Shown: piece by piece, positions 1 through 13,757 of the stretch | Numbering within the stretch: position 1 is the stretch's first letter | How the letters are laid out: every line of letters begins with the position of its first letter | Assembly (NCBI RefSeq): GCF_017313105.1 | Contig: NZ_JAFLND010000003.1 | Location: 1 to 64,000 of the forward strand | Reading direction: 5' to 3' | DNA: 64,000 nucleotides | From: [Muricauda] lutisoli (nom. illeg.) | GTDB lineage: Bacteria; Bacteroidota; Bacteroidia; Flavobacteriales; Flavobacteriaceae | Translations under genes and position numbers: made by a program | The notes under the pieces: model-generated | The model's input: only the letters and a program-made list of their open reading frames with translations | Databases searched by the model: none | What the model was told of the DNA's origin: nothing

Positions 1-1613
1 GCGCCATCGGTAACGTAAACATTTTTACAGGCATGAACTTGGTTAAATCCATTGACCACGGAGGTTTTAGGGTCACGCCCCATACGTGCAGTACCCATTT
101 CGTGGATACCAAGTCCAAGTGCATAAGGAGCATCAAAAGGAGTAACATCTTTGGCTCCCGCTTTTTCAAGCATTTGCACGGCTTGTTCCTGCATGTCCTT
201 ACGCATATTGTACTCATTCTCTTGGATTTCGGCATCGAAGGTTACGGTAGGTAGGCCCCATTGGTCCTTCTTGTCATAATCCAAGGTCATTTTGTTTTCA
301 TGGTACGGAAGTGTCTCACCGAAAGCATTTATGCCCATGTTCCACCCTCCAGGTGTCATCATAGCATCTTTATAGTCTTTTCCGTATGCAGCTTCGGCTA
401 TCATTTCTTCATAATTGCCTCTACTGGCACCACCTTGGTAACCATATCCACGGATAAAGTCTTTCATGTTGGAGTCACCGCCAAGGTTTCTAAATCTTGG
501 GATATATACTCCATTAGGTTTTCTACCCTTATAATATTTGTCTTCGTAACCTTCAAACTTACCACGTGCCCCTACCAAGAAGTGGTGATCCATTACGTTG
601 TGTCCCAATTCTCCGGAATCGTTACCTAATCCATCAGGGAATCTATCCGATTTGGATTGCATCAATATGGAAGTTGAAGCGATAGCCGAGGCACAAAGGA
701 AAATTACCTTGGCTTTGAACTCAAACTCTTCTTTGGTTTCCCTATCGATGACCTTGACACCGGTAGCTTTTTTGGTATTAGGGTCATAAATCACTTCATG
801 AACAATTGAATCCGGTCTTAGCGTCATATTACCTGTAGCCTCTGCTGCTGGCAGTGTAGACGATACGCTGCTAAAGTATGCTCCGAAAGGACATCCTCTG
901 ATACAACGGTTCCTAAATTGGCAACGCACTCGACCATCACCTTCAAATTGCTTGTCACTGTTAATATGCGCAACTCGACCAGCTGTGATTACACGACCAT
1001 TGAAATGTTCGGCAACTTTGCCTCTTACATGATCTTCTACACAATTGAGCTCCATCATGGGTTCAAATTGTCCGTCGGGCAGTTGTGCCAAACCTAAATT
1101 TTCACCGGAAACACCAATGTAACTTTCAACCTTATCGTACCAAGGTGCTATATCCTTGTAACGTACGGGCCAATCTACGGCAATTCCGTCATTTTTGTTT
1201 GCAGCAAAATCAATATCGCTCCAACGGTAACTGTGTCGTCCCCACATTATGGAACGTCCACCAACATGGTAACCTCTCATCCAATCAAACCTTTTGGTTT
1301 CATTGTAAGGGTGTTCCAAATCGTTTACGAACCAATGTTTGGAAGCTGCTCCAGTGGTATAACCGGTTCTTGATTGTTTCTCTTGTTTTTTAACGTCTTC
1401 TCGGGTTGCTCTTCCCGCATGAGGAAAATCCCATGGATCCATGTTTGCAGTTGGGTAATCTTCACGGTGTTTTACCATGGGCCCACGCTCCAAGACCAAA
1501 GTCTTGAGACCGTTTTCGCACAACTCTTTGGCAGCCCAACCACCGCTGATACCCGTACCTACCACGATGGCATCATAGGATTCCTGCTCCTGATTGTAAT
1601 AAAATTTACTCAT
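1..1613 (-). CDS. GMC family FAD-dependent oxidoreductase (3' end cut by window edge)
   Basis: A flavoenzyme of the glucose-methanol-choline family; 537 codons are visible and about 30 C-terminal residues lie off the window, judging from the paralogue at 6125-7828. The start is the ATG at 1613. The FAD-binding motif VVGTGISGG is at residues 17-25, a Cys-rich stretch (CQFRNRCIRGCPFG) lies near mid-protein, and the reading frame leaves the window just after the conserved VYVTDG. There is no signal peptide. The same architecture is found in the catalytic subunit of bacterial glucoside 3-dehydrogenases, which oxidise a sugar C3-OH to a ketone. That activity is inferred from the DUF1080 and isomerase neighbours; oxidation of another polyol or sugar acid is possible. 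It is divergent from the isomerase at 1750. Confidence 0.9.
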   Translation of the reverse strand, partial: MSKFYYNQEQESYDAIVVGTGISGGWAAKELCENGLKTLVLERGPMVKHREDYPTANMDPWDFPHAGRATREDVKKQEKQSRTGYTTGAASKHWFVNDLEHPYNETKRFDWMRGYHVGGRSIMWGRHSYRWSDIDFAANKNDGIAVDWPVRYKDIAPWYDKVESYIGVSGENLGLAQLPDGQFEPMMELNCVEDHVRGKVAEHFNGRVITAGRVAHINSDKQFEGDGRVRCQFRNRCIRGCPFGAYFSSVSSTLPAAEATGNMTLRPDSIVHEVIYDPNTKKATGVKVIDRETKEEFEFKAKVIFLCASAIASTSILMQSKSDRFPDGLGNDSGELGHNVMDHHFLVGARGKFEGYEDKYYKGRKPNGVYIPRFRNLGGDSNMKDFIRGYGYQGGASRGNYEEMIAEAAYGKDYKDAMMTPGGWNMGINAFGETLPYHENKMTLDYDKKDQWGLPTVTFDAEIQENEYNMRKDMQEQAVQMLEKAGAKDVTPFDAPYALGLGIHEMGTARMGRDPKTSVVNGFNQVHACKNVYVTDG

Positions 1614-1670
1614 TTATTCGGATTGTTTATTTGATAAATGTATTAATTATTAAATTAATTTTCTACATTT

Positions 1671-1685
1671 AATCCCTATGTTTAT
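1671..1685. promoter_or_regulatory. 15-bp element shared with the other GMC promoter region
   Basis: The sequence AATCCCTATGTTTAT lies 58 bp upstream of the first GMC gene, in the divergent spacer with the isomerase gene. A 14/15 match occurs at 7854-7868 upstream of the second GMC gene. A shared regulator site is an inference only. Confidence 0.25.
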
Positions 1686-1749
1686 TGAGAATTCAGCACT
1701 ATAACGTTGTAGTTTTTGGATTCCGCACGAAATTAACTAACGCAATAAT

Positions 1750-2748
1750 ATGAACAGAAGTAGATTAACACAAAAAAGTATTGTTACACTCATAGCAGTG
1801 GCTTTATTCGGATTTTATTCCTGTAAACAGAACCCAAAAAAGGAAACAACCGAAGAAACAACAACTGAAGCAGTAGCGGCAGAAGAATCCAAACCGGACA
1901 TTAAGCTCTCTTTGGCACAATGGTCTATCCACAAAATGATTTTTGAAGAAGGCGTGGACCCTTACACTTTTGCAGAAAAAGCAAGTAAGTGGGGATTTGA
2001 AGGTCTTGAGTATGTGAGCGCACTTTATTATAAGGAACTGCAGGCGGCAAACTTTTCTGAAGAAGCCATGAACAATTGGGTGGAAAAAAGCAAGGCTGAA
2101 AGTGAAAAATACGGTCTAACCAATGTTTTGATCATGGTGGACGGGCAAGGAGATATCGCCGTTCCCGATGAAACCGCAAGAACAGAAGCAGTGGAAAACC
2201 ATTATAAATGGGTGGATGCAGCAGCAGCCCTAGGGTGCCATTCCATTCGTGTTAACCTGAACGGAAGTATGGAGCCAGAGGTTTGGATGCCGGCATCAGT
2301 GGCAGGATTGAAACAATTGGCAACCTATGCCAAGGACAAGAACATAAATATTATCGTCGAAAACCACGGAGGTCCTTCTTCCAACGCGCAGATGTTGGCA
2401 GAGGTAATGGAAAAAGTGGGAATGGACAACTGTGGCACCTTGCCCGATTTTGGCAATTTCTGTATCAAAAGGGAAGAGGGTGATTACTATTCATCCGAAT
2501 GCTTGGAAGAATATGACCGCTATAAGGGAACAAAGGAGTTGATGCCATACGCCAAAGGTGTTAGTGCAAAATCCTACAGCTTTGATGAAGAAGGAAATGA
2601 AACTAGAGTGGATTACCCAAGAATTATGGATATAGTTTTGGATTCTGGATACGAAGGTTTTGTAGGTGTCGAATATGAAGGCTCGGAACTGGGTGAGGAA
2701 GAAGGGATTTTGGCAACCAAAAAACTTTTGGAAAGAATATTGGAATAA
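1750..2748 (+). CDS. Sugar isomerase/epimerase-type TIM-barrel lipoprotein
   Basis: A 332-residue protein of the AP-endonuclease-2-like TIM-barrel superfamily (sugar phosphate isomerase/epimerase). An N-terminal hydrophobic segment ends in the lipobox FYSC with Cys25, so it should be an extracytoplasmic lipoprotein. It is followed by a low-complexity Glu/Thr linker (about residues 30-48). The barrel begins with LAQWSIHKMI. Candidate metal ligands are E204 (VENHGG), D233 (LPDFGNF) and E308 (GVEYEG). Such proteins next to DUF1080 and GMC genes are thought to act on keto-sugars rather than on sugar phosphates. It is first of four closely spaced plus-strand genes (to 5605). The lipid anchor contrasts with the cytoplasmic paralogue at 7971, so the two probably work on opposite sides of the inner membrane. 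The substrate cannot be read from the sequence. Confidence 0.88.
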   Translation: MNRSRLTQKSIVTLIAVALFGFYSCKQNPKKETTEETTTEAVAAEESKPDIKLSLAQWSIHKMIFEEGVDPYTFAEKASKWGFEGLEYVSALYYKELQAANFSEEAMNNWVEKSKAESEKYGLTNVLIMVDGQGDIAVPDETARTEAVENHYKWVDAAAALGCHSIRVNLNGSMEPEVWMPASVAGLKQLATYAKDKNINIIVENHGGPSSNAQMLAEVMEKVGMDNCGTLPDFGNFCIKREEGDYYSSECLEEYDRYKGTKELMPYAKGVSAKSYSFDEEGNETRVDYPRIMDIVLDSGYEGFVGVEYEGSELGEEEGILATKKLLERILE

Positions 2749-2768
2749 TCCAATGTTAAAATGGGCCG

Positions 2769-3212
2769 ATGAAGGGATTTTTGAAACAACTCTTCGATTA
2801 CAATTTTTACTGTAATAAAAAAATTATGCAACAATGCAGTGGTCTGGACCATGTTCCGGACAACTGCATTAGACTTTTTAGTCACATGCTCAATGCCCAT
2901 CATATTTGGAACCATAGAATTTTGGGTACGCCCACGGAGTTTGGTGTTTGGGACAAACACCAAATGGACCAATGGGAAGATATCCATTACGAAAACCAAC
3001 GTACTTCTTTTGAAATTGTTTCCAATACGGATACTTTTGAAAAACGAGTGCAGTATACAAACAGTGAAGGAAAGAATTATTCAAGTGTGTTAAAGGATAT
3101 ACTTTTTCACATAGTTAATCATACCACTCATCACAGAGGGCAAATCATGATGGAATTGAGGAGCTCTGGAGTTGAGCCAAAACCTTTGGATTATATACAT
3201 TACAAAAGATAA
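2769..3212 (+). CDS. DinB family protein
   Basis: A 147-residue protein with the four-helix-bundle layout of the DinB/YfiT superfamily. The His-rich helices NAHHIWNH (about residue 43-50) and NHTTHHRGQ (about 116-124) provide the usual metal triad. Members are metal-dependent hydrolases or thiol transferases (for example bacillithiol S-transferases), but most have no known substrate. It sits 20 bp after the isomerase gene and 20 bp before the MFS gene, so it is probably co-transcribed. Why a DinB protein is in a sugar operon is not clear. There is no signal peptide, so it acts in the cytoplasm. The start is the ATG at 2769. Confidence 0.85.
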   Translation: MKGFLKQLFDYNFYCNKKIMQQCSGLDHVPDNCIRLFSHMLNAHHIWNHRILGTPTEFGVWDKHQMDQWEDIHYENQRTSFEIVSNTDTFEKRVQYTNSEGKNYSSVLKDILFHIVNHTTHHRGQIMMELRSSGVEPKPLDYIHYKR

Positions 3213-3232
3213 CTACTAACTAAAGACTTAAC

Positions 3233-4462
3233 ATGAATATTAAAACCAAATTTCAACTGTCCTTTATGATGTTCCTGGAATTTTTTATCTGGGGCGGTTG
3301 GTTTGTTACTTTGGGGACTTTTCTGGGTAACAATCTTGAAGCTACAGCAGGACAATCATCAATGGCATTTTCAACACAGTCGTGGGGGGCAATTATTGCA
3401 CCCTTTATTATTGGATTGATAGCCGACAGATATTTCAATGCCGAACGAATCTTGGGTGTGCTGCACTTGGTAGGTGCATTTTTGATGTACCAAATGTATC
3501 AATCAACAGATTTTGTGGCCTTCTATCCGTATGTGTTGGGTTACATGATCCTGTATATGCCTACACTGGCTCTGGTTAACTCCATTTCTTTTAATCAAAT
3601 GAAAGACCCGGCTAAGGAGTTTTCCAACATTCGGGTTTTTGGTACCATCGGATGGATCATTGCTGGATTGGTGATAAGTTATCTGTTTGTTTGGGACTCT
3701 CCAGAGGCCTTGGAAGCGGGAATGCTTAAAAATACATTTTTGATGGCAGGTATCGCCTCCGCAATTTTGGGGGTTTTCAGTTTTACATTGCCAAAGACAC
3801 CTCCAAAAGTGGACAAAAGTGAAAAAGTTGCCATTTCGGATGTGTTGGGCTTGGACGCCCTCAAACTATTGAAGGATAAAAACTTCCTGGTTTTCTTTAT
3901 TTCTTCGGTTTTGATCTGCATACCACTGGCTTTCTATTATCAAAATGCCAATCCGTTCTTAGCTGAAATAGGACTTCCCAATCCAACGGGCAAAATGGCC
4001 ATTGGTCAAGTATCGGAAGCACTGTTTATTCTGGCACTACCATTCTTTTTTACAAAATTCGGATTCAAAAAAACCATTTTGGTGGGAATGTTGGCCTGGA
4101 CGGTACGGTACATATTGTTCGCTTACGGTAATGCGGACGAACTATCCTTTATGTTGATCATTGGTATCGCATTGCACGGAATCTGCTACGACTTCTTTTT
4201 TGTTTCCGGACAGATCTATACGGATACAAAAGCAGGAGAAAAGTACAAAAGCGCTGCACAAGGACTGATTACTTTGGCAACTTACGGTGTTGGTATGCTT
4301 ATCGGTTTCTGGATTGCAGGACAAATAACAGATTCGCTAACAATGGATGATGGAGCACATGCATGGGAAACCATTTGGATGTATCCTGCAGGATTTGCAG
4401 CCGTAGTATTTGTGTTGTTCGCATTAATATTTAAAAACGAAAAAGTAGAATATAAATCATAA
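3233..4462 (+). CDS. MFS permease of the nucleoside:H+ symporter (NupG-like) type
   Basis: A 409-residue inner-membrane carrier with about 12 hydrophobic segments. The N-terminus (LSFMMFLEFFIWGGWFVTLG) is typical of the nucleoside:proton symporter branch of the major facilitator superfamily. The loop GLIADRYFNAERILG after TM2 matches the MFS A-motif position. In Bacteroidota this branch is often found next to isomerase/epimerase and Gfo/Idh/MocA genes, so a sugar or keto-sugar substrate is as plausible as a nucleoside. It lies 6 bp before the dehydrogenase gene, probably in one operon with 1750-5605. Confidence 0.85.
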   Translation: MNIKTKFQLSFMMFLEFFIWGGWFVTLGTFLGNNLEATAGQSSMAFSTQSWGAIIAPFIIGLIADRYFNAERILGVLHLVGAFLMYQMYQSTDFVAFYPYVLGYMILYMPTLALVNSISFNQMKDPAKEFSNIRVFGTIGWIIAGLVISYLFVWDSPEALEAGMLKNTFLMAGIASAILGVFSFTLPKTPPKVDKSEKVAISDVLGLDALKLLKDKNFLVFFISSVLICIPLAFYYQNANPFLAEIGLPNPTGKMAIGQVSEALFILALPFFFTKFGFKKTILVGMLAWTVRYILFAYGNADELSFMLIIGIALHGICYDFFFVSGQIYTDTKAGEKYKSAAQGLITLATYGVGMLIGFWIAGQITDSLTMDDGAHAWETIWMYPAGFAAVVFVLFALIFKNEKVEYKS

Positions 4463-4468
4463 AGAAAA

Positions 4469-5605
4469 ATGCCTAAAAAGATTAGACTTGGAATTCTTGG
4501 AGGAGGAGGCGATTCTCTTATTGGGGTGTTGCACAGAGTGGCCTCTTTCATTAATGACAATTATGAAATCGTAGGAGCTGTATTCAACCCTGATTTTGAG
4601 GACAATATGCAGTTCGCCAAGGAAATAGACATTCCTACGAATAGAATTTACAAAGATTTTGATACGCTTGTCGAGGAAGAGATGAAGTTGCCCGAAGATG
4701 AACGTATCCAAGTTTGCTCAATCCTTACACCGAACTTCCTTCACTTTCCAATGGCGAAAAAGTTATTGGAGAACGGTTTCAATGTCATCTGCGAAAAACC
4801 GATGACCACTACGTACGAGGAGGCTAAAGTGTTGCAGGAAACCTTGGAAAAAGAGGGAACCGTTTTCGCCGTAACCCATACCTATACGGGGTACCCCATG
4901 GTTAGGCAAATGCGTGAAATGATCAAAGAAGGTGTTATTGGAAAGGTTCACAAAGTAGATGTACAATACTATCAAGGTTGGATGAATCCAATTATCCACG
5001 ACAAGGAAAAGCGTGGTACGGTTTGGAGATTGGACCCTAAAAAAGCGGGAATAAGTTCTTGCATGGGAGATATTGGCGTCCATGCATTCAATATGGTCGA
5101 GTACACAACTGGGTTACAGGTACAGTCCCTATTGTGCGATTTTAATTATCTCTATGACGACAACCAGATGGATATGGATGGCACAGCGCTTATCCGTATG
5201 GACAAGAACGTTAAAGGCGTAATTAGGGCCAGTCAAGTGGCAACGGGGGAAGAAAACAACCTGTCCATTGCTATTTACGGTCAAAAAGGAGGATTAAAAT
5301 GGGAACAGGAAAACCCTAATTATTTATACAAATTGAACGATCCTGAACCACTACAGGTGTATAAACCAGGACACGAGTACAATTCCAAATTGTCTTTGGA
5401 CGGTACAAAATTACCGCCAGGACACCCGGAAGGTATATTTGATGCCATGGCCAACATTTACCTAGGGGTTGCCAAGGCCATCCGAGGAGAGGAATACAAC
5501 AGCGGAGAATTCCCAACCATGAAAGATGGGGTTAGGGGCCTCAATTTTATTGAGAATACCGTAGCTTCCCATAAACAAGGTAATATTTGGGTGGACATGG
5601 ATTAA
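4469..5605 (+). CDS. Gfo/Idh/MocA family NAD(P)-dependent oxidoreductase
   Basis: A 378-residue cytoplasmic dehydrogenase. The N-terminal Rossmann motif is GILGGGGDSLIG (residues 8-19); the family's EKP signature is E109-K110-P111, with Lys110 the expected catalytic base. The C-terminal substrate domain carries GDIGVHAFN, with D201 and H205 at the positions of the family's catalytic Asp and His. There is no Tat signal, unlike many exported members. In this context the likely job is to interconvert the hydroxyl and keto forms of a sugar, for example reducing 3-keto-glucose. It is last gene of the operon; a strong hairpin terminator follows 20 bp after the stop. Confidence 0.92.
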   Translation: MPKKIRLGILGGGGDSLIGVLHRVASFINDNYEIVGAVFNPDFEDNMQFAKEIDIPTNRIYKDFDTLVEEEMKLPEDERIQVCSILTPNFLHFPMAKKLLENGFNVICEKPMTTTYEEAKVLQETLEKEGTVFAVTHTYTGYPMVRQMREMIKEGVIGKVHKVDVQYYQGWMNPIIHDKEKRGTVWRLDPKKAGISSCMGDIGVHAFNMVEYTTGLQVQSLLCDFNYLYDDNQMDMDGTALIRMDKNVKGVIRASQVATGEENNLSIAIYGQKGGLKWEQENPNYLYKLNDPEPLQVYKPGHEYNSKLSLDGTKLPPGHPEGIFDAMANIYLGVAKAIRGEEYNSGEFPTMKDGVRGLNFIENTVASHKQGNIWVDMD

Positions 5606-5625
5606 TAGGAAACCCAAAAAACAGG

Positions 5626-5660
5626 AATGATGGCTGCCTACTGGCGGCCATTATTTTTTG
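5626..5660 (+). terminator. Rho-independent terminator of the 1750-5605 operon
   Basis: A 13-bp stem with two G-T wobbles (5626-5638 with 5643-5655), a TACT loop, and a run of T directly after it. It overlaps the stop codon of the convergent ASCH gene. Confidence 0.75.
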
Positions 5661-6115
5661 TAGAGCATCTCAAACTCCTCAAAAACCACGATCATACTTT
5701 CCTTGGGAGTTTTGCCAAACTCCGCAAGTTCTCGGGTAAAGTAATCCCAATGTGTTTTTTTCCAATGATCAAGGCTTTTATCGCCCTCACCTTCTAAACG
5801 CGCATGCTCCTCGCGAATGCTGAAATAGGGCAGTAGTTTTACCCTGGTCGTTCGGATGATGCATTTAGCATTTCCATTCCAATCGGTGACCACATAGAAA
5901 TCCCCGATTTTCGGTAAGGCCTCATTACGTAGTTGCAACCCTTGTAAAGCATGGCTGGTAGCTCTTTTAGCTTCTTTGGATATCAAATCGGCACATACAT
6001 CGGCATCTTTTTCATTATCACAAAAATGAATGACCTTGGGAGCATCTTCAGAAGCAAACTCTAAATGGGCATCCAAAAAATCGCCCCACAGATTTCGGGC
6101 AGAAGCATTTTCCAT
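5651..6115 (-). CDS. ASCH domain protein
   Basis: A 154-residue protein matching the ASCH (PUA-like) fold of the Ef3133-like branch. Recognisable stretches are SARNLWGDFLDAH near the N-terminus, then KRATSHALQGLQ, KIGDFYVVTDWNGNAKCII in the barrel, and the acidic LEGEGDKSLDHWKKTHWDYF. ASCH proteins are predicted RNA- or modified-nucleoside-binding factors; some have amidohydrolase activity on acylated cytidines. It follows the GMC gene (6125-7828) by 9 bp on the same strand, so it is probably co-transcribed with it, which does not obviously fit its predicted function. The stop lies inside the terminator of the opposite operon. Confidence 0.85.
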   Translation of the reverse strand: MENASARNLWGDFLDAHLEFASEDAPKVIHFCDNEKDADVCADLISKEAKRATSHALQGLQLRNEALPKIGDFYVVTDWNGNAKCIIRTTRVKLLPYFSIREEHARLEGEGDKSLDHWKKTHWDYFTRELAEFGKTPKESMIVVFEEFEMLYKK

Positions 6116-6124
6116 AAGCAGGTT

Positions 6125-7828
6125 TTAAGAAAATTTATGTTGTTTGAATTGTTCAGCGGCATGATTTGCTGCCCTTGCGGTAAAGGCCATATAGGTCAGC
6201 GATGGATTTACGCAACTGGCAGAAGTCATAAAAGCACCATCGGTTACATAAACATTGGGAACCGAGTGCAATTGATTGTGCTTGTTCAATACAGAAGTTT
6301 TCGGGTCGTGTCCCATGCGTGCACCTCCCATTTCGTGTATCCCAAGTCCCGGGCCCGTCTCGGTATCGTATGTGTGGACATCAGTAAAACCAGCAGCTTT
6401 TAGCATGGCAGCAGCTTCCTCTTTTATGGCTTCTCGCATTTTATATTCGTTTTCCTTGAACTCCACATCAAAATTCAATTGTGGAAGTCCCCATTGATCT
6501 TTTTTATCCTTGCTCAAAGTAACCCGATTATCATGATGTGGCAACATTTCGCCAAAACCGGTCATGCCTATTTCCCATCCACCAGGTTTTAAAATCGCCT
6601 CTTTATAGGCCGGCCCATGTCCAAGTTCAGCAACCGTTTCGGACCAACTGCCCCTACTTGCCCCACCTTGATAGCCAAAACCACGTAAAAAATCTGTCCG
6701 CTTTGTTTTCTCATCAAGGTTGACAAATCTCGGGATGTAAAAACCGTTCGGTCTCCTTCCTTTATAGTACTTGTCCAAATGGCCATTAACTTTAGCAGAT
6801 GCCCCTAATTGATAGTGGTGGTCCATGATGTTACGCCCCAATTGATCGTGATTGTTTCCCATGCCATTGGGGAACTCCTTGGATTTGGATTGTAATAAGA
6901 TCCCAACAGAGGCCATTGCCGAAGCACAGAGAAATACAATGTTACTTTTAAACGCTATTTTTTCATGGGTCTCCGCATCGATTATGTTTACCCCGGTTGC
7001 TTTTTTGCTGTTTTGATCATAAGAGATTTCATAAACGATGGAGTTTGGCCTTAGGGTCATATTCCCGGTTCGTTCCGCAGCGGGAAGGGTAGAGGAATTA
7101 CTGCTGAAATAGCCTCCAAAGGGGCATCCTCTCCAACAACGATTACGATATTGGCAAGGTCCGCGACCTTCAATATCCGTTGTGTTTTCAGTAATATGGG
7201 CTACTCTTCCAATAGTGAGCAAACGCCCATCCTTAAAATTCTTTCCTAAGGATGCCTGTAAATCTTTTTCAACACAATTCAACTCCATAGGCGGCTGAAA
7301 CTTACCATCTGGCAGTTGTTTAAGCCCTAAAGCTTGACCGCTAACACCAATATAGGATTCCACTTTGTCGTACCAAGGAGCAATATCTTTATAGCGAACT
7401 GGCCAATCCACTGCAATGCCTTCTTTCTTGTTGGCTTCAAAATCAATGTCGCTCCATCGGTAACTTTGACGCCCCCAAGTTAAGGATCGCCCACCAACTT
7501 GGTAGCCTCGAATCCAATCAAAACGTTTGGTTTCTTGATACGGATGTTCCAGATCGTTTACAAAAAAGTGCTTTACATCATCTTTTGGAGCCCACCCCAC
7601 CCTGAGTTGCTTGTGGTATTTTTCTTTGTCATCACGGGTAAGTTCCCCTTTAAAAGGATAATCCCAAGGATCGTCGTTCATGGTTTTGTAGTCTTCAACA
7701 TGCTTTACCATAGGGCCACGTTCCAGTACAAGAACATTAAGGCCATTTTCGCATAGTTCTTTGGCTGCCCAACCACCACTTATTCCTGTACCTACAACAA
7801 TAGCATCATAAACTTTGGTTTCAATCAC
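6125..7828 (-). CDS. GMC family FAD-dependent oxidoreductase (complete)
   Basis: A 567-residue flavoenzyme, a close paralogue of the truncated gene at 1-1613. The start is GTG at 7828: the frame is closed by a stop four codons upstream and no ATG is available. The FAD motif VVGTGISGG is at residues 11-19; the Cys-rich stretch CQYRNRCWRGCPFGG is at mid-length; the C-terminal GMC domain contains LGIHEMGGARMG, and NPSLTYMA near the end at the usual active-site His/Asn region. There is no signal peptide. The closest functional model is glucoside 3-dehydrogenase, but the small Tat-exported subunit and cytochrome that often accompany it are not in the window. It is divergent from the isomerase gene at 7971. 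Confidence 0.92.
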   Translation of the reverse strand: MIETKVYDAIVVGTGISGGWAAKELCENGLNVLVLERGPMVKHVEDYKTMNDDPWDYPFKGELTRDDKEKYHKQLRVGWAPKDDVKHFFVNDLEHPYQETKRFDWIRGYQVGGRSLTWGRQSYRWSDIDFEANKKEGIAVDWPVRYKDIAPWYDKVESYIGVSGQALGLKQLPDGKFQPPMELNCVEKDLQASLGKNFKDGRLLTIGRVAHITENTTDIEGRGPCQYRNRCWRGCPFGGYFSSNSSTLPAAERTGNMTLRPNSIVYEISYDQNSKKATGVNIIDAETHEKIAFKSNIVFLCASAMASVGILLQSKSKEFPNGMGNNHDQLGRNIMDHHYQLGASAKVNGHLDKYYKGRRPNGFYIPRFVNLDEKTKRTDFLRGFGYQGGASRGSWSETVAELGHGPAYKEAILKPGGWEIGMTGFGEMLPHHDNRVTLSKDKKDQWGLPQLNFDVEFKENEYKMREAIKEEAAAMLKAAGFTDVHTYDTETGPGLGIHEMGGARMGHDPKTSVLNKHNQLHSVPNVYVTDGAFMTSASCVNPSLTYMAFTARAANHAAEQFKQHKFS

Positions 7829-7853
7829 TTTAATGTTGTTTTAATTGTTAACG

Positions 7854-7868
7854 AATCCCTATATTTAT
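7854..7868. promoter_or_regulatory. Second copy of the 15-bp GMC upstream element
   Basis: AATCCCTATATTTAT, 25 bp upstream of the GMC start at 7828, differs at one position from the copy at 1671-1685. Both copies read in the same orientation relative to their GMC gene. Confidence 0.25.
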
Positions 7869-7923
7869 CTCTTACCACATGAGATTTGAAAATAGCATAG
7901 TTTTTTTCTTAAATATAGAAGAT

Positions 7924-7946
7924 AAATCCCAATTTATTTGGGATTT
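7924..7946. promoter_or_regulatory. Perfect 9-bp inverted repeat, candidate operator or 5' hairpin
   Basis: AAATCCCAA, a 5-nt spacer, then TTGGGATTT, ending 24 bp before the ATG of the isomerase gene at 7971. It could be a repressor operator for the 7971-10520 operon or a hairpin in its leader. Its AATCCC half resembles the start of the GMC upstream elements. Confidence 0.45.
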
Positions 7947-7970
7947 CCTAATTCCTAAAAATTAAATTCA

Positions 7971-9023
7971 ATGAAAACAATAAAAGGACCAGCAGTATTC
8001 CTAGCACAATTTGTGGACAGTCAGCCTCCGTTCAATTCTTTGGATGGAATATGTAAATGGGCCTCTGATCTAGGCTATAAGGGTATCCAGATTCCAACAA
8101 CGGAGTCGTTCCTGATAGATTTGGACAAAGCGGCAGAAAGTCAAGATTACTGCGACGAACTAAAAGGGAAAATCAATTCGTACGGGTTGGAGATCACCGA
8201 ACTGTCCACGCACTTACAAGGGCAATTGGTAGCGGTGCATCCGGCTTACGATATTATGTTCGATAATTTTGCGCCAGATGCTTTAAAAGGAAAACCGAAA
8301 GAACGTACCAAATGGGCGGTCGACCAAGTAAAAAAGGCGGCTACGGCCAGTCGACGATTAGGTCTAAAGGCACATGCAACCTTCTCCGGTTCACTTTTGT
8401 GGCATACTATGCACCCTTGGCCTCAAAGGCCGGACGGTTTAGTGGAAATGGGTTTTGAGGAGCTGGCAAAAAGATGGATGCCCATCCTTGATCATTTTGA
8501 TGAAGAAGGTGTGGATGTCTGTTATGAGATTCACCCAGGGGAAGACCTGCATGATGGAGATACTTTTGAACGTTTCTTGGAAGCAACGGGAAACCATAAA
8601 AGGGTCAACATTTTGTACGATCCAAGTCATTTTGTTTTACAGCAATTGGATTACATCGAGTACATCGATTTTTATCATGAGTTCATCAAATCGTTCCATG
8701 TAAAGGATTCTGAATTTAACCCAACAGGAAAAAAAGGTGCCTTTGGAGGATATAACGATTGGGGAGACAGGGCTGGAAGATACCGTTCCCTAGGTGATGG
8801 CCAAATCGATTTCAAGACCATTTTCTCAAAATTGACACAATACGGTTGTGATGTTTGGGCCGTAATGGAATGGGAATGCTGCATAAAAAGTCCTGAACAA
8901 GGAGCAAGGGAAGGAGCCAAATTCATCAAGGACCACATCATCGAGGCAACCACAAAGACCTTTGATGACTTTGCTGGCGGAGATATAGATGAACAAAAAC
9001 TTAAAAATATATTGGGACTATGA
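7971..9023 (+). CDS. Sugar isomerase/epimerase-type TIM-barrel protein (cytoplasmic)
   Basis: A 350-residue TIM-barrel protein of the AP-endonuclease-2-like superfamily with no signal peptide. The probable metal ligands are E186 (CYEIHPGED), D217 (YDPSHF), H243 (SFHVKDSE) and E300 (VMEWECC), the E-D-H-E set of active sugar isomerases/epimerases. It is distinct from the lipoprotein at 1750, being longer and with a different C-terminal extension (KTFDDFAGGDIDEQKL). The stop overlaps the start of the first DUF1080 gene by 4 bp, so the two are translationally coupled. In this context it probably isomerises or hydrates a keto-sugar intermediate. The substrate is unknown. Confidence 0.9.
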   Translation: MKTIKGPAVFLAQFVDSQPPFNSLDGICKWASDLGYKGIQIPTTESFLIDLDKAAESQDYCDELKGKINSYGLEITELSTHLQGQLVAVHPAYDIMFDNFAPDALKGKPKERTKWAVDQVKKAATASRRLGLKAHATFSGSLLWHTMHPWPQRPDGLVEMGFEELAKRWMPILDHFDEEGVDVCYEIHPGEDLHDGDTFERFLEATGNHKRVNILYDPSHFVLQQLDYIEYIDFYHEFIKSFHVKDSEFNPTGKKGAFGGYNDWGDRAGRYRSLGDGQIDFKTIFSKLTQYGCDVWAVMEWECCIKSPEQGAREGAKFIKDHIIEATTKTFDDFAGGDIDEQKLKNILGL

Positions 9024-9763
9024 GAAAATCAATATGGTTTGTAGCACTTGCTCTTGTTTTTGCCTGTAAGGATAAACCAAAAGAAAGCCAGGAGGAAATG
9101 GAAGAGACAGTTGAGGCAACAGAGGAAGAAGAATCCGATTGGGTCACGTTATTCGACGGAACAAGTTTTGATGGTTGGCACATGTACAATGGTGGAGAAG
9201 TCACCGAGCCATGGAAATTGGAAGATGGAGCCATGGTGCTTTACCCACCGGAGGAAAGACCAGAGGGTGCCAATTATAATTTGGTGACCGATCAAGAGTT
9301 TACCGATTTTGTGCTTACCATGGATTGGAAGATTGCCGAAGGGGGCAACAGTGGTTTCTTTTGGGGAGTAAAAGAGGATGAAAAATATGGGGAACCATAC
9401 CTTACCGGACCAGAAATACAGGTGCTGGACGATGAGAGACATCCAGATGCACAGAATGGAACCGATCGCTTGGCCGGTGCTTTGTACGATATGGTCTCTC
9501 CATCGGAAAATGCAGTTAAGCCTGCAGGAGAATGGAACTCAGTTGAGTTAATGGTGAACCATAAAACCAACGAAGGCCACGTTGTTTTAAATGGGACCAA
9601 AATTGTGGAGTTCCCGGTCCAAGGACCGGAATGGGAAGAGTTGGTCGCCAATTCAAAATTTGCTGAATGGGAAGGTTTTGCCGCTTTTAAAACGGGTAAA
9701 ATAGGACTACAAGATCATGGGAACATGGTAGCCTTCAAAAATATTAAAATTAAAGAATTGTAG
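9020..9763 (+). CDS. DUF1080 (3-keto-disaccharide hydrolase-like) lipoprotein
   Basis: A 247-residue protein. The signal peptide ends in VFAC (Cys16), so it is a lipoprotein; an acidic linker (Glu-rich, about residues 22-40) leads into one DUF1080 domain, a concanavalin-like beta-sandwich. Typical family stretches are LFDGTSFDGWH, GNSGFFWG, GPEIQVLDD and the closing GLQDHGNMVAFKNIKI. DUF1080 proteins cleave glycosides that have been oxidised to the 3-keto form. It starts 4 bp inside the isomerase gene and is 1 bp from the second DUF1080 gene. Two members in tandem suggest different linkages or a hydrolase/lyase division of labour; the sequence does not decide which. Confidence 0.93.
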   Translation: MRKSIWFVALALVFACKDKPKESQEEMEETVEATEEEESDWVTLFDGTSFDGWHMYNGGEVTEPWKLEDGAMVLYPPEERPEGANYNLVTDQEFTDFVLTMDWKIAEGGNSGFFWGVKEDEKYGEPYLTGPEIQVLDDERHPDAQNGTDRLAGALYDMVSPSENAVKPAGEWNSVELMVNHKTNEGHVVLNGTKIVEFPVQGPEWEELVANSKFAEWEGFAAFKTGKIGLQDHGNMVAFKNIKIKEL

Positions 9764-9764
9764 T

Positions 9765-10520
9765 ATGTCAAGATTAACAAACAGACTATTGGTTTTGTCC
9801 CTGCTTATTGCCGGATTTATCACCGCACAAGAGGTAGAACCGACCACCCCCGAGGAAACGGAATTTTATGAGCCCGTTCCCCCTAAAGTTACCCCAGGAC
9901 AAAATGGTGCACCTCCCAGTGATGCCATTGTACTTTTTGATGGCACGTCTTTGGATAAATGGATAAGTTCCCGAGATAGTACTGAGGCAAAATGGATTTT
10001 AAATGAAGATGGAAGCATGACCGTAAACGATAGGACCGGCGATATTCAGACCAAACAAAATTTTGGAAGTGTACAGCTTCACATCGAGTGGAAATCGCCC
10101 GCAGAAGTACAGCGTGATGGTCAAAACCGAGGCAATAGCGGAGTGTTTTTGAATAACCTCTATGAAGTCCAGGTATTGGACAACAACGACAACGACACCT
10201 ATGTAAACGGGCAAGTAGGCTCCATTTACAAACAACATGTGCCCTTGGCAATGGCTTCGGTGCCTACTGGTGAATGGAACACGTACGACATTATTTACCA
10301 TGCACCCGAGTTCGAAAAGGGCCAAAAAGTAAAATCGGGTACGTTGACGGTGATCCACAATGGCGTTTTGATCCAGGATCATGTGGAGATCAAGGGAACC
10401 ACTCCATATATCGGATGGCCCAAAAACCCACCACATGGAAAGGGACCGCTAAGACTTCAGGACCACGGCGATAACAGCAGGGTAAGTTATAGGAATATTT
10501 GGGTAAGGGAACTGGATTAG
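9765..10520 (+). CDS. DUF1080 (3-keto-disaccharide hydrolase-like) periplasmic protein
   Basis: A 251-residue protein with a type I signal peptide, cleaved near ITA-Q (about residue 21-22), so a soluble periplasmic form is expected rather than a lipoprotein. One DUF1080 domain follows a Pro/Glu-rich linker: LFDGTSLDKWIS, RGNSGVFLNNLYEVQVLD and, at the end, LRLQDHGDNSRVSYRN. It is a divergent paralogue of the preceding gene. It is last in the 7971-10520 operon; no clear hairpin follows. Confidence 0.93.
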   Translation: MSRLTNRLLVLSLLIAGFITAQEVEPTTPEETEFYEPVPPKVTPGQNGAPPSDAIVLFDGTSLDKWISSRDSTEAKWILNEDGSMTVNDRTGDIQTKQNFGSVQLHIEWKSPAEVQRDGQNRGNSGVFLNNLYEVQVLDNNDNDTYVNGQVGSIYKQHVPLAMASVPTGEWNTYDIIYHAPEFEKGQKVKSGTLTVIHNGVLIQDHVEIKGTTPYIGWPKNPPHGKGPLRLQDHGDNSRVSYRNIWVRELD

Positions 10521-10579
10521 CTCCCTTAACCCAATTTTAAAATAGAAATCCACTAAAAGGGCCAAAAACCTATTTTGGT

Positions 10580-10587
10580 TACCTTTG
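10580..10587 (+). promoter_or_regulatory. Candidate -10 (TAnnTTTG) for yicC
   Basis: TACCTTTG, 20 nt before the chosen yicC ATG. It matches the Bacteroidota -10 consensus but no TTG is at the expected -33 distance. Confidence 0.35.
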
Positions 10588-10607
10588 GCAAAATTTATCA
10601 TAGGTAT

Positions 10608-11465
10608 ATGATTCAATCCATGACAGGCTTTGGGAAGCATGTAGTGCAGCTTCCTTCCAAGAAAATCACCATTGAGTTGAAGTCGCTCAACAGTAAAAAC
10701 CTGGACATCAATGCCAGACTTCCCCAATTTTACCGGGAAAAAGAACTGGAACTACGTAAAATGATCGCTAGTGCTTTGAACAGGGGCAAAATAGATTTTA
10801 GTCTGTACGTTGAAATTACCGGAGAGGAAACCACCGCTGAGGTAAACAAAGGGGTGGTGAGAAACTATATGGACCAATTGGCCGATATAGCCAAAGGCGA
10901 CGACATAAAATTATTGGAAATGGCCCTGCGGATGCCCGATACCCTCAAAACCGATAAGGATGACATTGATGAGGAAGAATACAATGCAATAAAACAGGCC
11001 ATGGACGAGGCACTTTCCAAAATAGTCGAGTTCAGGAACGAAGAAGGTAAAGTCTTGGAAGAAGATTTTGTGACACGGCTGAATAATTTGAACGAGTTGT
11101 TGGAGAAAGTGAACAAAATGGACCCAGAACGCTTAGCCACGGTCCGGGAGCGATTGGAGAAAGCAGTGGCCGACCTTAAGGTGGAACTGGATGCCAATAG
11201 GTTTGAACAAGAACTGATCTACTATCTGGAGAAATATGACATCACCGAGGAAAAGGTCCGCTTGGCCAACCACTTAAAATATTTTGAAACCACCTTGAAT
11301 TCAGGTGATTCCAATGGAAAAAAACTTGGGTTCATTTCCCAAGAAATCGGAAGGGAGATCAATACCATCGGTTCCAAGGCCAATTACGCCCCAATGCAGC
11401 AGTTGGTGGTCCAGATGAAAGATGAACTGGAAAAAATAAAGGAACAAATGCTCAATGTGTTATGA
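10608..11465 (+). CDS. YicC family endoribonuclease
   Basis: A 285-residue protein starting MIQSMTGFGK, the invariant N-terminus of the YicC family, so the ATG at 10608 is preferred over an in-frame TTG at 10575. It has the YicC N-terminal domain (about 1-155) and the C-terminal DUF1732 domain (about 200-285, with ERLATVRERL and GKKLGFISQEIGREINTIGSKA). Family members are cytoplasmic ribonucleases that act on small RNAs in enterobacteria. The stop overlaps the start of gmk by 4 bp; yicC-gmk-nadD is a common order in Flavobacteriaceae and is probably one operon. Confidence 0.95.
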   Translation: MIQSMTGFGKHVVQLPSKKITIELKSLNSKNLDINARLPQFYREKELELRKMIASALNRGKIDFSLYVEITGEETTAEVNKGVVRNYMDQLADIAKGDDIKLLEMALRMPDTLKTDKDDIDEEEYNAIKQAMDEALSKIVEFRNEEGKVLEEDFVTRLNNLNELLEKVNKMDPERLATVRERLEKAVADLKVELDANRFEQELIYYLEKYDITEEKVRLANHLKYFETTLNSGDSNGKKLGFISQEIGREINTIGSKANYAPMQQLVVQMKDELEKIKEQMLNVL

Positions 11466-12647: not shown

Positions 12648-13757
12648 CTATTTTTGTGCGGTGACCACGCCCACCATACTGTCGGCAGTTCCATAATACA
12701 AATACCATGTTCCATTGAACATAACAAGTCCTTCCAAGAAGGTTGTTCCGTCTTTGTATTGTCCCGATTTTTCAAAAGGCAATTCAGGTTTAATGAAGGG
12801 TTCGTCAGTTTGGTCCAACAGTTTCCATGGTTCATTGACGTCAAAAAGAGCCTGTCCGCCGGTATAAATTCTATTTCCAAGATCTTTCACCCCGATGTTT
12901 TGTGAATTTCCTGCGTTGTAAAGCAATACAATGCCATTACTGGTAAGCAATGGTGGTGGACCGGCCTCTACCAACCAAGAATCAAAATAGCCTGGTCTAG
13001 GGCTTAAAACTGGAGCTAAATTTCCTTCATAGGTTTCCACAGGTTCCCAATCTATCAAATTCGTGGAAGAAGCTAACCAAATGTTGGGCACACCGTAGTA
13101 CATCCAATATTTTCCATTGATTTTGGCAGCAACTAATTTTCCATTCCGTAGTTCGGTGACAATGGCCCCCGATTTGCTCTCTTTTTCGTGATAGATACCG
13201 TTTTTGTAATGCTGAAAAACAGGACCGTGTTTCTCCCAGTTCACTAAGTCTTTTGATGTGGCAACAGCTAGTTTGGGTACTTTTCTGTTCCATTGGGTGT
13301 AGGTCAGCACATAAAGCCCGTCTTCGGTTTCCACGATTCTTGGGTCTTCAACTCCGCCCGGCCATTCGTTGGTTTTTTGATTGTCGTTCTTTGGATAAAA
13401 AACAGGTGCTGGCCATTTGTTATACCTGAGCCCATCGGAAGAAGTGGCCATACCGATCCGAGAACGGTGCCCACCGATTTCTTTCTCCCCCAATTTTTCT
13501 TCGGCGCGGTAGAGAACGTAGATGGAATCCTCTTTAACTATTGCAGCAGGATTAAAAGTGGCCATGGATTCCCAGTGAACTTTTTTATTGGTTATGGGGT
13601 CGGTAAAGGTAGATGCACCATCTTTCTGTAAGATTGGTCGAGCATTATCTGGACGCTTAAATGGTCCCAACATCCATTCTTTTTCTTTGGTTTGTGAAAA
13701 TATGTTGGTGAGAGAAAGTAAAAGAAAGGATAGGAATAGAATTGCTGTTCTCATCAA
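12648..13757 (-). CDS. Exported glycoside hydrolase family 130-like protein
   Basis: A 369-residue five-bladed beta-propeller enzyme of the GH130 type. The signal peptide (about residues 1-21, ending NIFSQ) shows it is exported. The catalytic-acid region is GVEDPRIV with Asp138. GH130 contains cytoplasmic mannoside phosphorylases and secreted beta-1,2-mannosidases; export, where inorganic phosphate is scarce, makes hydrolysis of a beta-mannoside more likely. Phosphorylases carry a cluster of basic phosphate-binding residues, which needs an alignment to check. The gene follows a DUF6503-like gene by 2 bp and is probably co-transcribed with it. Confidence 0.85.
   Translation of the reverse strand: MMRTAILFLSFLLLSLTNIFSQTKEKEWMLGPFKRPDNARPILQKDGASTFTDPITNKKVHWESMATFNPAAIVKEDSIYVLYRAEEKLGEKEIGGHRSRIGMATSSDGLRYNKWPAPVFYPKNDNQKTNEWPGGVEDPRIVETEDGLYVLTYTQWNRKVPKLAVATSKDLVNWEKHGPVFQHYKNGIYHEKESKSGAIVTELRNGKLVAAKINGKYWMYYGVPNIWLASSTNLIDWEPVETYEGNLAPVLSPRPGYFDSWLVEAGPPPLLTSNGIVLLYNAGNSQNIGVKDLGNRIYTGGQALFDVNEPWKLLDQTDEPFIKPELPFEKSGQYKDGTTFLEGLVMFNGTWYLYYGTADSMVGVVTAQK

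Follow-up and report, generated by a model that had tools for sequence, protein, structure and literature searches.

A widely conserved gene cluster of [Muricauda] lutisoli that fits a known type of glycoside breakdown by oxidation, cleavage, hydration and reduction

We conclude that the first 10,520 positions (1-10520) of the 64,000-nt window, the whole stretch of DNA analysed here ([Muricauda] lutisoli, contig NZ_JAFLND010000003.1, assembly GCF_017313105.1), hold a gene cluster that is widely conserved and, as one more case of a pathway type already known, ordinary. The cluster probably serves glycoside catabolism of the oxidation, cleavage, hydration and reduction type, with steps on both sides of the inner membrane, a reading to which we give a probability of about 0.72. 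The least explained gene of the cluster is TIM1, which encodes a predicted exported lipoprotein. The cluster comprises ten genes:

3..1613, minus strand: GMCa, GMC oxidoreductase of the FAD-dehydrogenase alpha-subunit type, 3' end missing, CX5CX3C motif (Pfam GMC_oxred_N/C)
1614..1749, no strand: gap of 136 nt by coordinates between the divergent GMCa and TIM1 genes; divergent promoters presumed
1750..2748, plus strand: TIM1, predicted exported lipoprotein, xylose-isomerase-like TIM barrel (Pfam AP_endonuc_2; PDB 4ovx, E 2e-75)
2769..3212, plus strand: DinB-family protein, between TIM1 and MFS (Pfam DinB, 8.8e-17)
3233..4462, plus strand: MFS permease, nucleoside-H+-symporter-like (Pfam Nuc_H_symport, 3e-120)
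4469..5605, plus strand: Gfo/Idh/MocA oxidoreductase (Gfo), candidate 3-keto-sugar reductase (Pfam; PDB 3v5n, 5.5e-85)
5651..6115, minus strand: ASCH-domain protein, an insertion in a subset of relatives (Pfam ASCH, 5.4e-19)
6125..7828, minus strand: GMCb, GMC oxidoreductase, complete, CX5CX3C motif (Pfam; PDB fructose and FAD-glucose dehydrogenase subunits)
7971..9023, plus strand: HYD, 2-hydroxy-3-keto-glucal hydratase homolog (PDB 8ro4, E 6.2e-165)
9020..9763, plus strand: DUF1080-a, lipoprotein-type N-terminus (PF06439, 5.5e-51; PDB 4jqt, 3h3l, 8tda, 8rr2 and others)
9765..10520, plus strand: DUF1080-b, signal-peptide-like N-terminus, separate DUF1080 subfamily (PF06439, 1.4e-39; PDB 4qhz, 1.1e-74)
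12648-13757, minus strand: GH130-family gene, 2.1 kb beyond the cluster

An earlier note on this DNA had named eight of these genes; all eight are present and match their families above the Pfam cut-offs, and it had overlooked the DinB and ASCH genes. Its statement that SusCD and classical glycosidases are lacking holds for positions 1-10520, but a GH130-family gene lies close by. The contig starts at window base 1, where the GMCa gene lacks its 3' end, so the cluster runs on beyond the window. By strand and spacing the genes fall into four groups, not one, with both GMC genes on the minus strand, GMCa divergent from TIM1 and GMCb from HYD (gap 142 nt). A promoter scan of positions 1-11000 gave 17 promoter-like sites against 22.4 in shuffles, which lends no support to divergent promoters, and 11 terminator-like sites against 11.0 expected.

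The gene that sets the chemistry is HYD. Its residues 1-350 align to residues 1-349 of PDB 8ro4, a 2-hydroxy-3-keto-glucal hydratase that we take to be the one of the A. tumefaciens GlycDH-OGE-HYD-Gfo operon. Given this homology, the likely chemistry is oxidation, beta-elimination, hydration and reduction. The earlier scheme of 3-keto-glycoside breakdown is kept, as far as sequence can tell, in its probable C3 oxidation by GMC enzymes, cleavage by DUF1080 proteins, TIM-barrel step and Gfo reduction, but not in the isomerase role that it gave to the cytoplasmic TIM barrel, whose full-length PDB relative is the hydratase. No signal peptide was seen in HYD, which is presumed to be cytoplasmic.

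A search of relatives, which the earlier note had proposed as a check, found the gene set widely, with its order conserved in the family; this order takes the set beyond chance. HYD occurs in 101 and TIM1 in 102 of 199 sampled family genomes, the two together in 96, HYD alone in 5, TIM1 alone in 6 and neither in 92 (own genome counted; Fisher P 2e-42, a value that ignores shared ancestry). We compared 40 neighbourhoods of the hydratase gene, chosen from 101 not at random but for spread of identity and of contig size, and the best 80 of at least 593 loci; the two sets overlap partly in species and are not independent. Counts refer to gene midpoints within 9.5 kb and to broad family labels (GMC, Gfo) rather than orthology. 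Five core families (GMC, its small subunit, TIM1, Gfo and DUF1080) all lie within this distance of the hydratase gene in 30 of the 40 neighbourhoods and in 47 of the best 80 of at least 593 loci, which does not support the earlier note's view that the exact set deserves study. In 28 of the 40 neighbourhoods the gene just upstream of HYD belongs to the Gfo family, and in 32 HYD is followed directly by DUF1080. An MFS gene is near in 27/40 and, among the best 80 of at least 593 loci, in 44, both probably undercounts, since genes of roughly 390-412 aa that occupy this position went unlabelled. The DinB gene is near in 12/40 and 17/80, and the ASCH gene in 10/40 and 20/80, the latter figures again from the best 80 of at least 593 loci.

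Proteobacteria, too, have sets of these families, though the subfamilies are in part different, as on Pseudoalteromonas and Sphingomonas plasmids. In the Pseudoalteromonas set the MFS is not a match of the window's MFS, and the GMC protein is 44% identical to another GMC of the [Muricauda] genome versus 33% to GMCa/GMCb. HYD adjoins a Gfo gene on Rhizobium daejeonense, Azospirillum and Phaeobacter plasmids, and it occurs without DUF1080 or GMC in plasmid stretches of Phaeobacter, Azospirillum, Rhizobium daejeonense and Pantoea; its substrate may therefore come from other routes. TIM1 had no match in nine plasmid stretches, three of them GC-rich with poorly called ORFs; ORF calling missed the hydratase on the GC-rich loci L172, L177 and L179, though tblastn found it, and the record annotation was used for L172 and L177. 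Neither Caulobacter nor Agrobacterium is named in the titles of the best 80 of at least 593 loci, and the comparisons made below with these two genera draw on published descriptions.

The earlier note had every step except the last duplicated, a picture that dissolves on comparison. By their N-termini and families, the two TIM barrels belong to different compartments and different families. DUF1080-a and -b are 28% identical and have different conserved residues. GMCb is a second copy at a position where few relatives have a GMC gene: one lies directly upstream of HYD in 5 of the 40 neighbourhoods and 10 of the best 80 of at least 593 loci.

Both GMCa (residue 231) and GMCb carry the CX5CX3C motif, as do 114 of 116 GMC proteins with a length above 480 aa. 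In the PDB, GMCb comes closest to subunits of FAD-dependent fructose and glucose dehydrogenases (E about 2e-42 to 1e-40), and the motif aligns with three cysteines of fructose dehydrogenase, which we take to be [3Fe-4S] ligands. In relatives the gene adjoining GMC is a Gluconate_2-dh3 small subunit (Pfam, one representative), found no more than 9.5 kb from HYD in 33/40; by a crude pattern, RR stands close to the N-terminus in 88 of 103 proteins with this label. In the window cluster, the gene for the small subunit of GMCa would lie outside the window, adjoining GMCa as in relatives. A GMCa paralog, 87% identical, is cut off by the end of contig C1 at the very same codon, the two ends sharing 123 identical nt, and contig C2 of this genome bears a 3' piece of a small-subunit gene at its end.

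Read by eye, the N-terminus of DUF1080-a is that of a lipoprotein and that of DUF1080-b a signal peptide; lipobox-like starts, by eye or crude pattern, are found in 52/78 DUF1080-a and 36/58 DUF1080-b proteins. We propose that DUF1080-a may be a periplasmic 3-keto-glycoside lyase or hydrolase. Hydrolysis by DUF1080, the view in the excerpted text of PMC9007349, would give the 3-keto-sugar directly and leave HYD idle. The MFS protein scores 382 bits against TIGR00889, below the cut-off of 446, and is proposed as a candidate importer of the keto-sugar or glycal. No signal peptide was seen in Gfo. Ten of the 40 neighbourhoods have as their sole nearby Gfo genes ones 25-43% identical to the window's Gfo, and two have a Gfo of about 70% beside one of about 40% identity, so different types of Gfo may carry out the final step. 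A BT2158/BT2159-type system was ruled out for the window's Gfo, which scores 32.8 bits (cut-off 750) and 21.2 bits (cut-off 650) against the BT_2158/BT_2159-family models, far below both cut-offs.

The families, their order and conservation, the full-length homology of HYD, the cysteine motif and the small subunit with its twin-arginine-like start in relatives are observed; we infer reactions, compartments, transport step and substrate as follows. A periplasmic GMC dehydrogenase, exported via the Tat signal of its small subunit, would oxidise the glycoside at C3, its electrons passing through the iron-sulfur cluster to an acceptor. One or both exported DUF1080 proteins would then split the 3-keto-glycoside, and at least some of this cleavage would be a beta-elimination that yields 2-hydroxy-3-keto-glucal; TIM1 may either share in the cleavage or interconvert keto-sugars. 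The MFS permease would import the product, cytoplasmic HYD would hydrate the glycal to a 3-keto-sugar and Gfo would reduce this to an ordinary hexose.

The elimination step is read from the presence of HYD and not from the DUF1080 sequences, and a hydrolytic route, close to the scheme of the earlier note, has to be weighed against it, in which DUF1080 releases a 3-keto-sugar and the aglycone, the TIM barrels isomerise or epimerise and Gfo reduces. The Pfam name of PF06439, 3-keto-disaccharide hydrolase, speaks for this route, as does PMC9007349, the excerpted text of which proposes the DUF1080 protein as a 3'-ketolactose hydrolase and cites BT2157 as a 3-ketotrehalose hydrolase. We nevertheless hold it unlikely, since the match of the cytoplasmic TIM barrel is to a glucal hydratase and not to an isomerase, and since an idle HYD would hardly show such strong conservation (82% mean column identity across 15 sequences; 51% for TIM1 over 30, a different sequence set). 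That broad-family oxidoreductase and TIM-barrel genes came together by chance, with no common pathway, is extremely improbable: the families are large and the genes stand in four groups by strand, but the synteny of the core families and the joint occurrence of TIM1 and HYD speak strongly against it.

A further reading makes TIM1 the main eliminase, for aryl or C-glycosides, and leaves other substrates, such as disaccharides, to DUF1080. By sequence profile and model, TIM1 indeed appears to resemble 3-keto-C-glycoside eliminases somewhat more than it does sugar epimerases. Behind the uncharacterised relative 4ovx at rank 1, the fold search with the TIM1 model has nothing but C-glycoside-cleaving enzymes at ranks 2-15 (chains of Dgp, Dfg, DaCGD and MtCGD, with proteins repeated), and the first epimerase comes at rank 16; yet TM-scores by query length in the top 50 do not separate eliminases (0.61-0.65), epimerases (0.55-0.63) and Art22 (0.65-0.66). 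The TIM1 profile favours the best eliminases (5e-13 to 4e-12) over the best tagatose epimerases (9e-7), but these best matches lie mostly within the C-terminal third, and mixed among the matches are the isomerase Art22 (4.5e-8) and weaker eliminases that score like epimerases or worse (8qvc 1e-7, 7dnm 1e-6, 8qrz 2e-5). The E-x-H and PDF motifs align with those of C-glycoside eliminases, with ENHG in 91/91 and LPDF in 90/91 TIM1 proteins longer than 280 aa. Against this, of the residues whose metal-site and catalytic roles are given in the excerpted text of PMC10628242, Glu, the catalytic His, Asp and the last Glu align in TIM1, but the Glu/Asp/His/Glu metal site of the eliminase alpha subunit is incomplete: the ligand His is missing, replaced by a Ser invariant in 30/30 TIM1 sequences, which makes metal binding by TIM1 doubtful. 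On balance we consider a main eliminase role for TIM1 rather unlikely.

Within the preferred reading, in which DUF1080 cleaves and HYD hydrates, TIM1 is proposed as a periplasmic enzyme that may process 3-keto-glycosides. Its lipobox reads FYSC by eye, and 72 of 91 TIM1 proteins have a lipobox-like start (by eye or crude pattern). We offer tentatively that TIM1 might be the founding member of a new family of lyases or epimerases that act on 3-keto-glycosides, are exported and membrane-anchored, and have an active site rebuilt with Ser in place of the ligand His. It would act beside DUF1080, with oxidation and elimination outside the inner membrane, and the reactive 2-hydroxy-3-keto-glucal would be imported by the MFS permease and then hydrated and reduced inside. 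We know of no precedent for a dedicated permease that imports a free keto-glycal.

With the hydratase in half of the sampled family genomes, these bacteria may have a standard route that breaks down glycosides without hydrolysis, and a survey of classical glycosidases and SusCD loci would overlook it. HYD beside DUF1080 also makes the question of hydrolysis versus elimination by DUF1080 directly testable, and a conserved exported TIM1 is now placed in a biochemical context.

That the pathway type was already known, as the earlier note said, is borne out by the systems in the excerpted texts of PMC10628242 and PMC9007349. The latter describes a Caulobacter crescentus lacABC/DUF1080 lactose cluster with the same kinds of genes, a likeness drawn from the paper's description and not from sequences. 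Common to this type and the window are a GMC protein of the kind that serves as catalytic subunit in FAD-dehydrogenase complexes, exported DUF1080 (two, predicted, in the window), a transporter, two TIM-barrel 'epimerases' and a reductase (by family, MFS, TIM1, HYD and Gfo in the window). This type also has a small subunit (Gluconate_2-dh3) encoded next to its GMC gene, a place that for GMCa falls beyond the contig end. The window differs in that no cytochrome gene was seen among its ten cluster genes, in that one TIM barrel is an exported lipoprotein and in the DinB and ASCH insertions. The A. tumefaciens operon in the excerpt of PMC10628242 encodes a 3-dehydrogenase, an eliminase, a Gfo reductase and, on 'preliminary evidence', a hydratase; the proposed route runs from oxidation through elimination and hydration to reduction. 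If 8ro4 is that hydratase, operon and window have a homologous hydratase, a Gfo gene and the same four-step logic. No relative of the eliminase AtOGE was detected in the window cluster, where exported DUF1080 and TIM1 would stand in its place; 8BVK (AtOGE) is absent from the TIM1, HYD and DUF1080 sequence matches and from the top 50 of 439 TIM1 fold matches, its presence in the searched sets being unconfirmed.

The C-glycoside eliminases (DgpB/C, DfgA/B, DaCGD and MtCGD) resemble TIM1 in fold class, in the last Glu and in the E-x-H and PDF motifs. TIM1 differs in the Ser at the ligand-His position, in lipoprotein export and in that the window cluster showed no gene for a second subunit. The pathway type to which the window cluster is assigned is reportedly the subject of two papers of 2024, one in Nature and one in Angewandte. 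The Bacteroides thetaiotaomicron genes BT2156-BT2160 presumably make up a glycoside 3-dehydrogenase/DUF1080 pathway; the dehydrogenases BT2158 and BT2159 are of the Gfo type, whereas oxidation in the window is assigned to GMC enzymes. BT2158 of this system is treated in the excerpted text of PMC11300592. The B. thetaiotaomicron pathway and the window would agree in the cleavage of 3-keto-glycosides by DUF1080, as proposed here.

In phmmer searches against the PDB, the hydratase-like TIM-barrel protein HYD matched 8ro4, a "2-hydroxy-3-keto-glucal hydratase" that we take to be AtHYD, over its full length (E = 6.2e-165); its second-best match scored 1.9e-44. A published study (PMC10628242) describes an A. 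tumefaciens operon in which AtHYD, on "preliminary evidence", acts after an eliminase and supplies a Gfo reductase. The earlier note had proposed that the cluster would "cleave, isomerise, reduce". Given the full-length match to 8ro4 and the A. tumefaciens operon, its isomerisation step is replaced by hydration, and the scheme becomes "eliminate, hydrate, reduce".

The ORF list and Pfam scan recovered all eight genes previously named in this cluster and two further ones, DinB and ASCH:

3-1613, minus strand, GMC oxidoreductase (GMCa)
1750-2748, plus strand, TIM barrel, predicted lipoprotein (TIM1)
2769-3212, plus strand, DinB
3233-4462, plus strand, MFS
4469-5605, plus strand, Gfo
5651-6115, minus strand, ASCH
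6125-7828, minus strand, GMC oxidoreductase (GMCb)
7971-9023, plus strand, HYD
9020-9763, plus strand, DUF1080-a
9765-10520, plus strand, DUF1080-b

Along the plus strand, TIM1, DinB, MFS and Gfo are separated by 20, 20 and 6 nt; the HYD reading frame runs 4 nt into that of DUF1080-a, and 1 nt separates DUF1080-a from DUF1080-b. On the minus strand, GMCa is divergent from TIM1 (136 nt) and the ASCH-GMCb pair from HYD (142 nt). By eye, TIM1 and DUF1080-a have lipoprotein-like N-termini and that of DUF1080-b resembles a signal peptide; no export-type N-terminus was seen by eye in HYD, Gfo or the GMC proteins. A GH130-family protein (12648-13757, minus strand; Pfam, 5.4e-42) lies 2.1 kb downstream of the cluster, and 47246-48991 (minus strand) encodes a candidate alpha-amylase-family (GH13-type) lipoprotein, judged from its sequence.

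HYD is present in 101 of 199 family genomes, its own included, at 68-92% identity where the match in another genome is full-length. The search for the gene set in relatives that the earlier note had called for was made in 40 of these 101 HYD neighbourhoods, chosen for spread and not at random; all five families occurred near HYD (within 9.5 kb) in 30 (Gfo 39, TIM1 38, DUF1080 36, GMC 36, small subunit 33). DUF1080 was the next gene after HYD, on the same strand, in 32/40, and Gfo lay immediately upstream in 28/40, with ASCH or GMC there in 10 of the remaining 12. Among the best 80 of at least 593 named loci, many of them truncated by contig ends, the set was complete in 47 (Gfo 72, DUF1080 64, GMC 60, TIM1 54, small subunit 54). 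TIM1 and HYD co-occur across the family genomes: both in 96 of the 199, HYD only in 5, TIM1 only in 6 and neither in 92 (Fisher P = 2e-42, uncorrected for shared ancestry). In 10/40 neighbourhoods the nearby Gfo genes were only 25-43% identical to that of the window. Close and distant types (about 70% and 40% identical) are adjacent before HYD in two (L064, L086); other relatives have retained the distant type alone. DinB is in place inside the cluster in 12/40 relatives and ASCH in 10/40, though neither is evidently connected with sugar metabolism. On the far side of the small-subunit gene, some relatives carry a TIM barrel of a third type whose N-terminus looks exported (stretches L061:2623-3606, L068:16377-17297). 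Such a gene is near HYD in 12/40 neighbourhoods and 13 of the best 80 of at least 593 named loci; if present in this genome, it would fall off the window.

The nearest solved structures to GMCb are FAD-dependent fructose and glucose dehydrogenase subunits. A CX5CX3C motif, which supplies the [3Fe-4S] ligands of such dehydrogenases, is found in GMCa, GMCb and 114 of 116 neighbourhood GMC proteins longer than 480 aa. The gene adjoining GMC in relatives is Gluconate_2-dh3 (one representative tested), and 88 of 103 proteins labelled small subunit carry RR close to the N-terminus. GMC and small subunit would be exported together by Tat and would pass electrons to an acceptor, not act as an oxidase.

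The genome comprises 3.42 Mb in six contigs, the window being bases 1-64000 of C3, and GMCa is incomplete because the window start is the end of that contig. Contig C1 terminates within a GMC gene whose protein is 87% identical to GMCa, at the same codon as the GMCa break and with the terminal 123 nt identical, and the C2 end carries the 3' portion of a small-subunit gene (PF13618). The same-codon breaks and this small-subunit piece indicate that the assembly was probably broken by a repeated GMC region; recent duplication or gene conversion between GMCa and its C1-end paralog possibly split it. The C1 end also holds a second cluster (stretch L014, about 5-20 kb) with a GH2 beta-galactosidase, an exported TIM barrel, an FGE-sulfatase-domain protein, a Gfo protein, the GMCa paralog and, by eye, SusC/SusD-like proteins.

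Thirteen different sequences of solved structure match DUF1080-a at E <=0.001, 8tda, 8rr2 and 8v31 among them; DUF1080-b matched three, with 4qhz (1.1e-74) well ahead of 4hxc (5.7e-7) and 3h3l (0.0004). The two share 28% identity. Of 158 DUF1080 proteins from the neighbourhoods that are 200-300 aa long, 78 are a-type and 58 b-type at >=40% identity, both types occurring together in 38 loci. Judged by sequence, they are two subfamilies and no recent duplicate; the same comparisons cannot be read as pointing to lysis or hydrolysis in particular. The genome has seven DUF1080 matches (C1, C2, C3), five of them outside the cluster.

The AlphaFold2 model of TIM1 (mean pLDDT 90.8; 30 sequences) had 4ovx, an uncharacterised Planctomyces protein, as top fold match. 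Ranks 2-15 were all chains of C-glycoside-cleaving enzymes, the first epimerase following at rank 16 and the isomerase Art22 at rank 18; TM-scores fail to split eliminases from epimerases. In the profile search, the leading eliminases (5e-13 to 4e-12) matched mostly in the C-terminal third, and Art22 (4.5e-8) and tagatose epimerases (9e-7) were interspersed with weaker eliminases (4e-9 to 2e-5). In the alignment, the E-x-H and PDF motifs of C-glycoside eliminases and their last Glu recur in TIM1, but their ligand His is Ser in TIM1. From its position in the cluster, TIM1 likely acts on 3-keto-glycosides.

Outside the family, HYD matched 328 of 72,556 plasmid records by tblastn. Nine HYD-bearing stretches were opened from the 30 of 328 matches listed; two of the six annotated there hold the complete set by family:

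Pseudoalteromonas donghaensis plasmid: Gfo, hydratase, MFS, DUF1080, GMC, small subunit, TIM barrel (annotation)
Sphingomonas parapaucimobilis plasmid: Gfo, cytochrome c, hydratase, MFS, TIM barrel, DUF1080, small subunit, second TIM barrel, GMC (annotation)

In three others (L173, L174, L177), from Phaeobacter, Rhizobium daejeonense and Azospirillum, the hydratase adjoins Gfo, and DUF1080 and GMC are absent from the annotation of the opened stretches. ABC transporter, inositol or xylose genes take their place, and these contexts suggest that the hydratase is also used by other pathways. The hydratase adjoins an MFS gene in the sixth, from Pantoea, and ORF calls on Novosphingobium (L179), one of the three unannotated, gave Gfo, TIM barrel, DUF1080 and small subunit. 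None of the nine stretches gave a TIM1 match. This genome encodes a third GMC, to which the GMC from Pseudoalteromonas is closer (44% identity) than it is to GMCa or GMCb (33%), and the Pseudoalteromonas MFS does not match that of the window. By such comparisons, the plasmid sets and the window cluster are not orthologous throughout. A gene set of this kind is already in print for a Caulobacter lactose cluster (PMC9007349), and we conclude that the cluster belongs to an already known pathway type that is common in its family.
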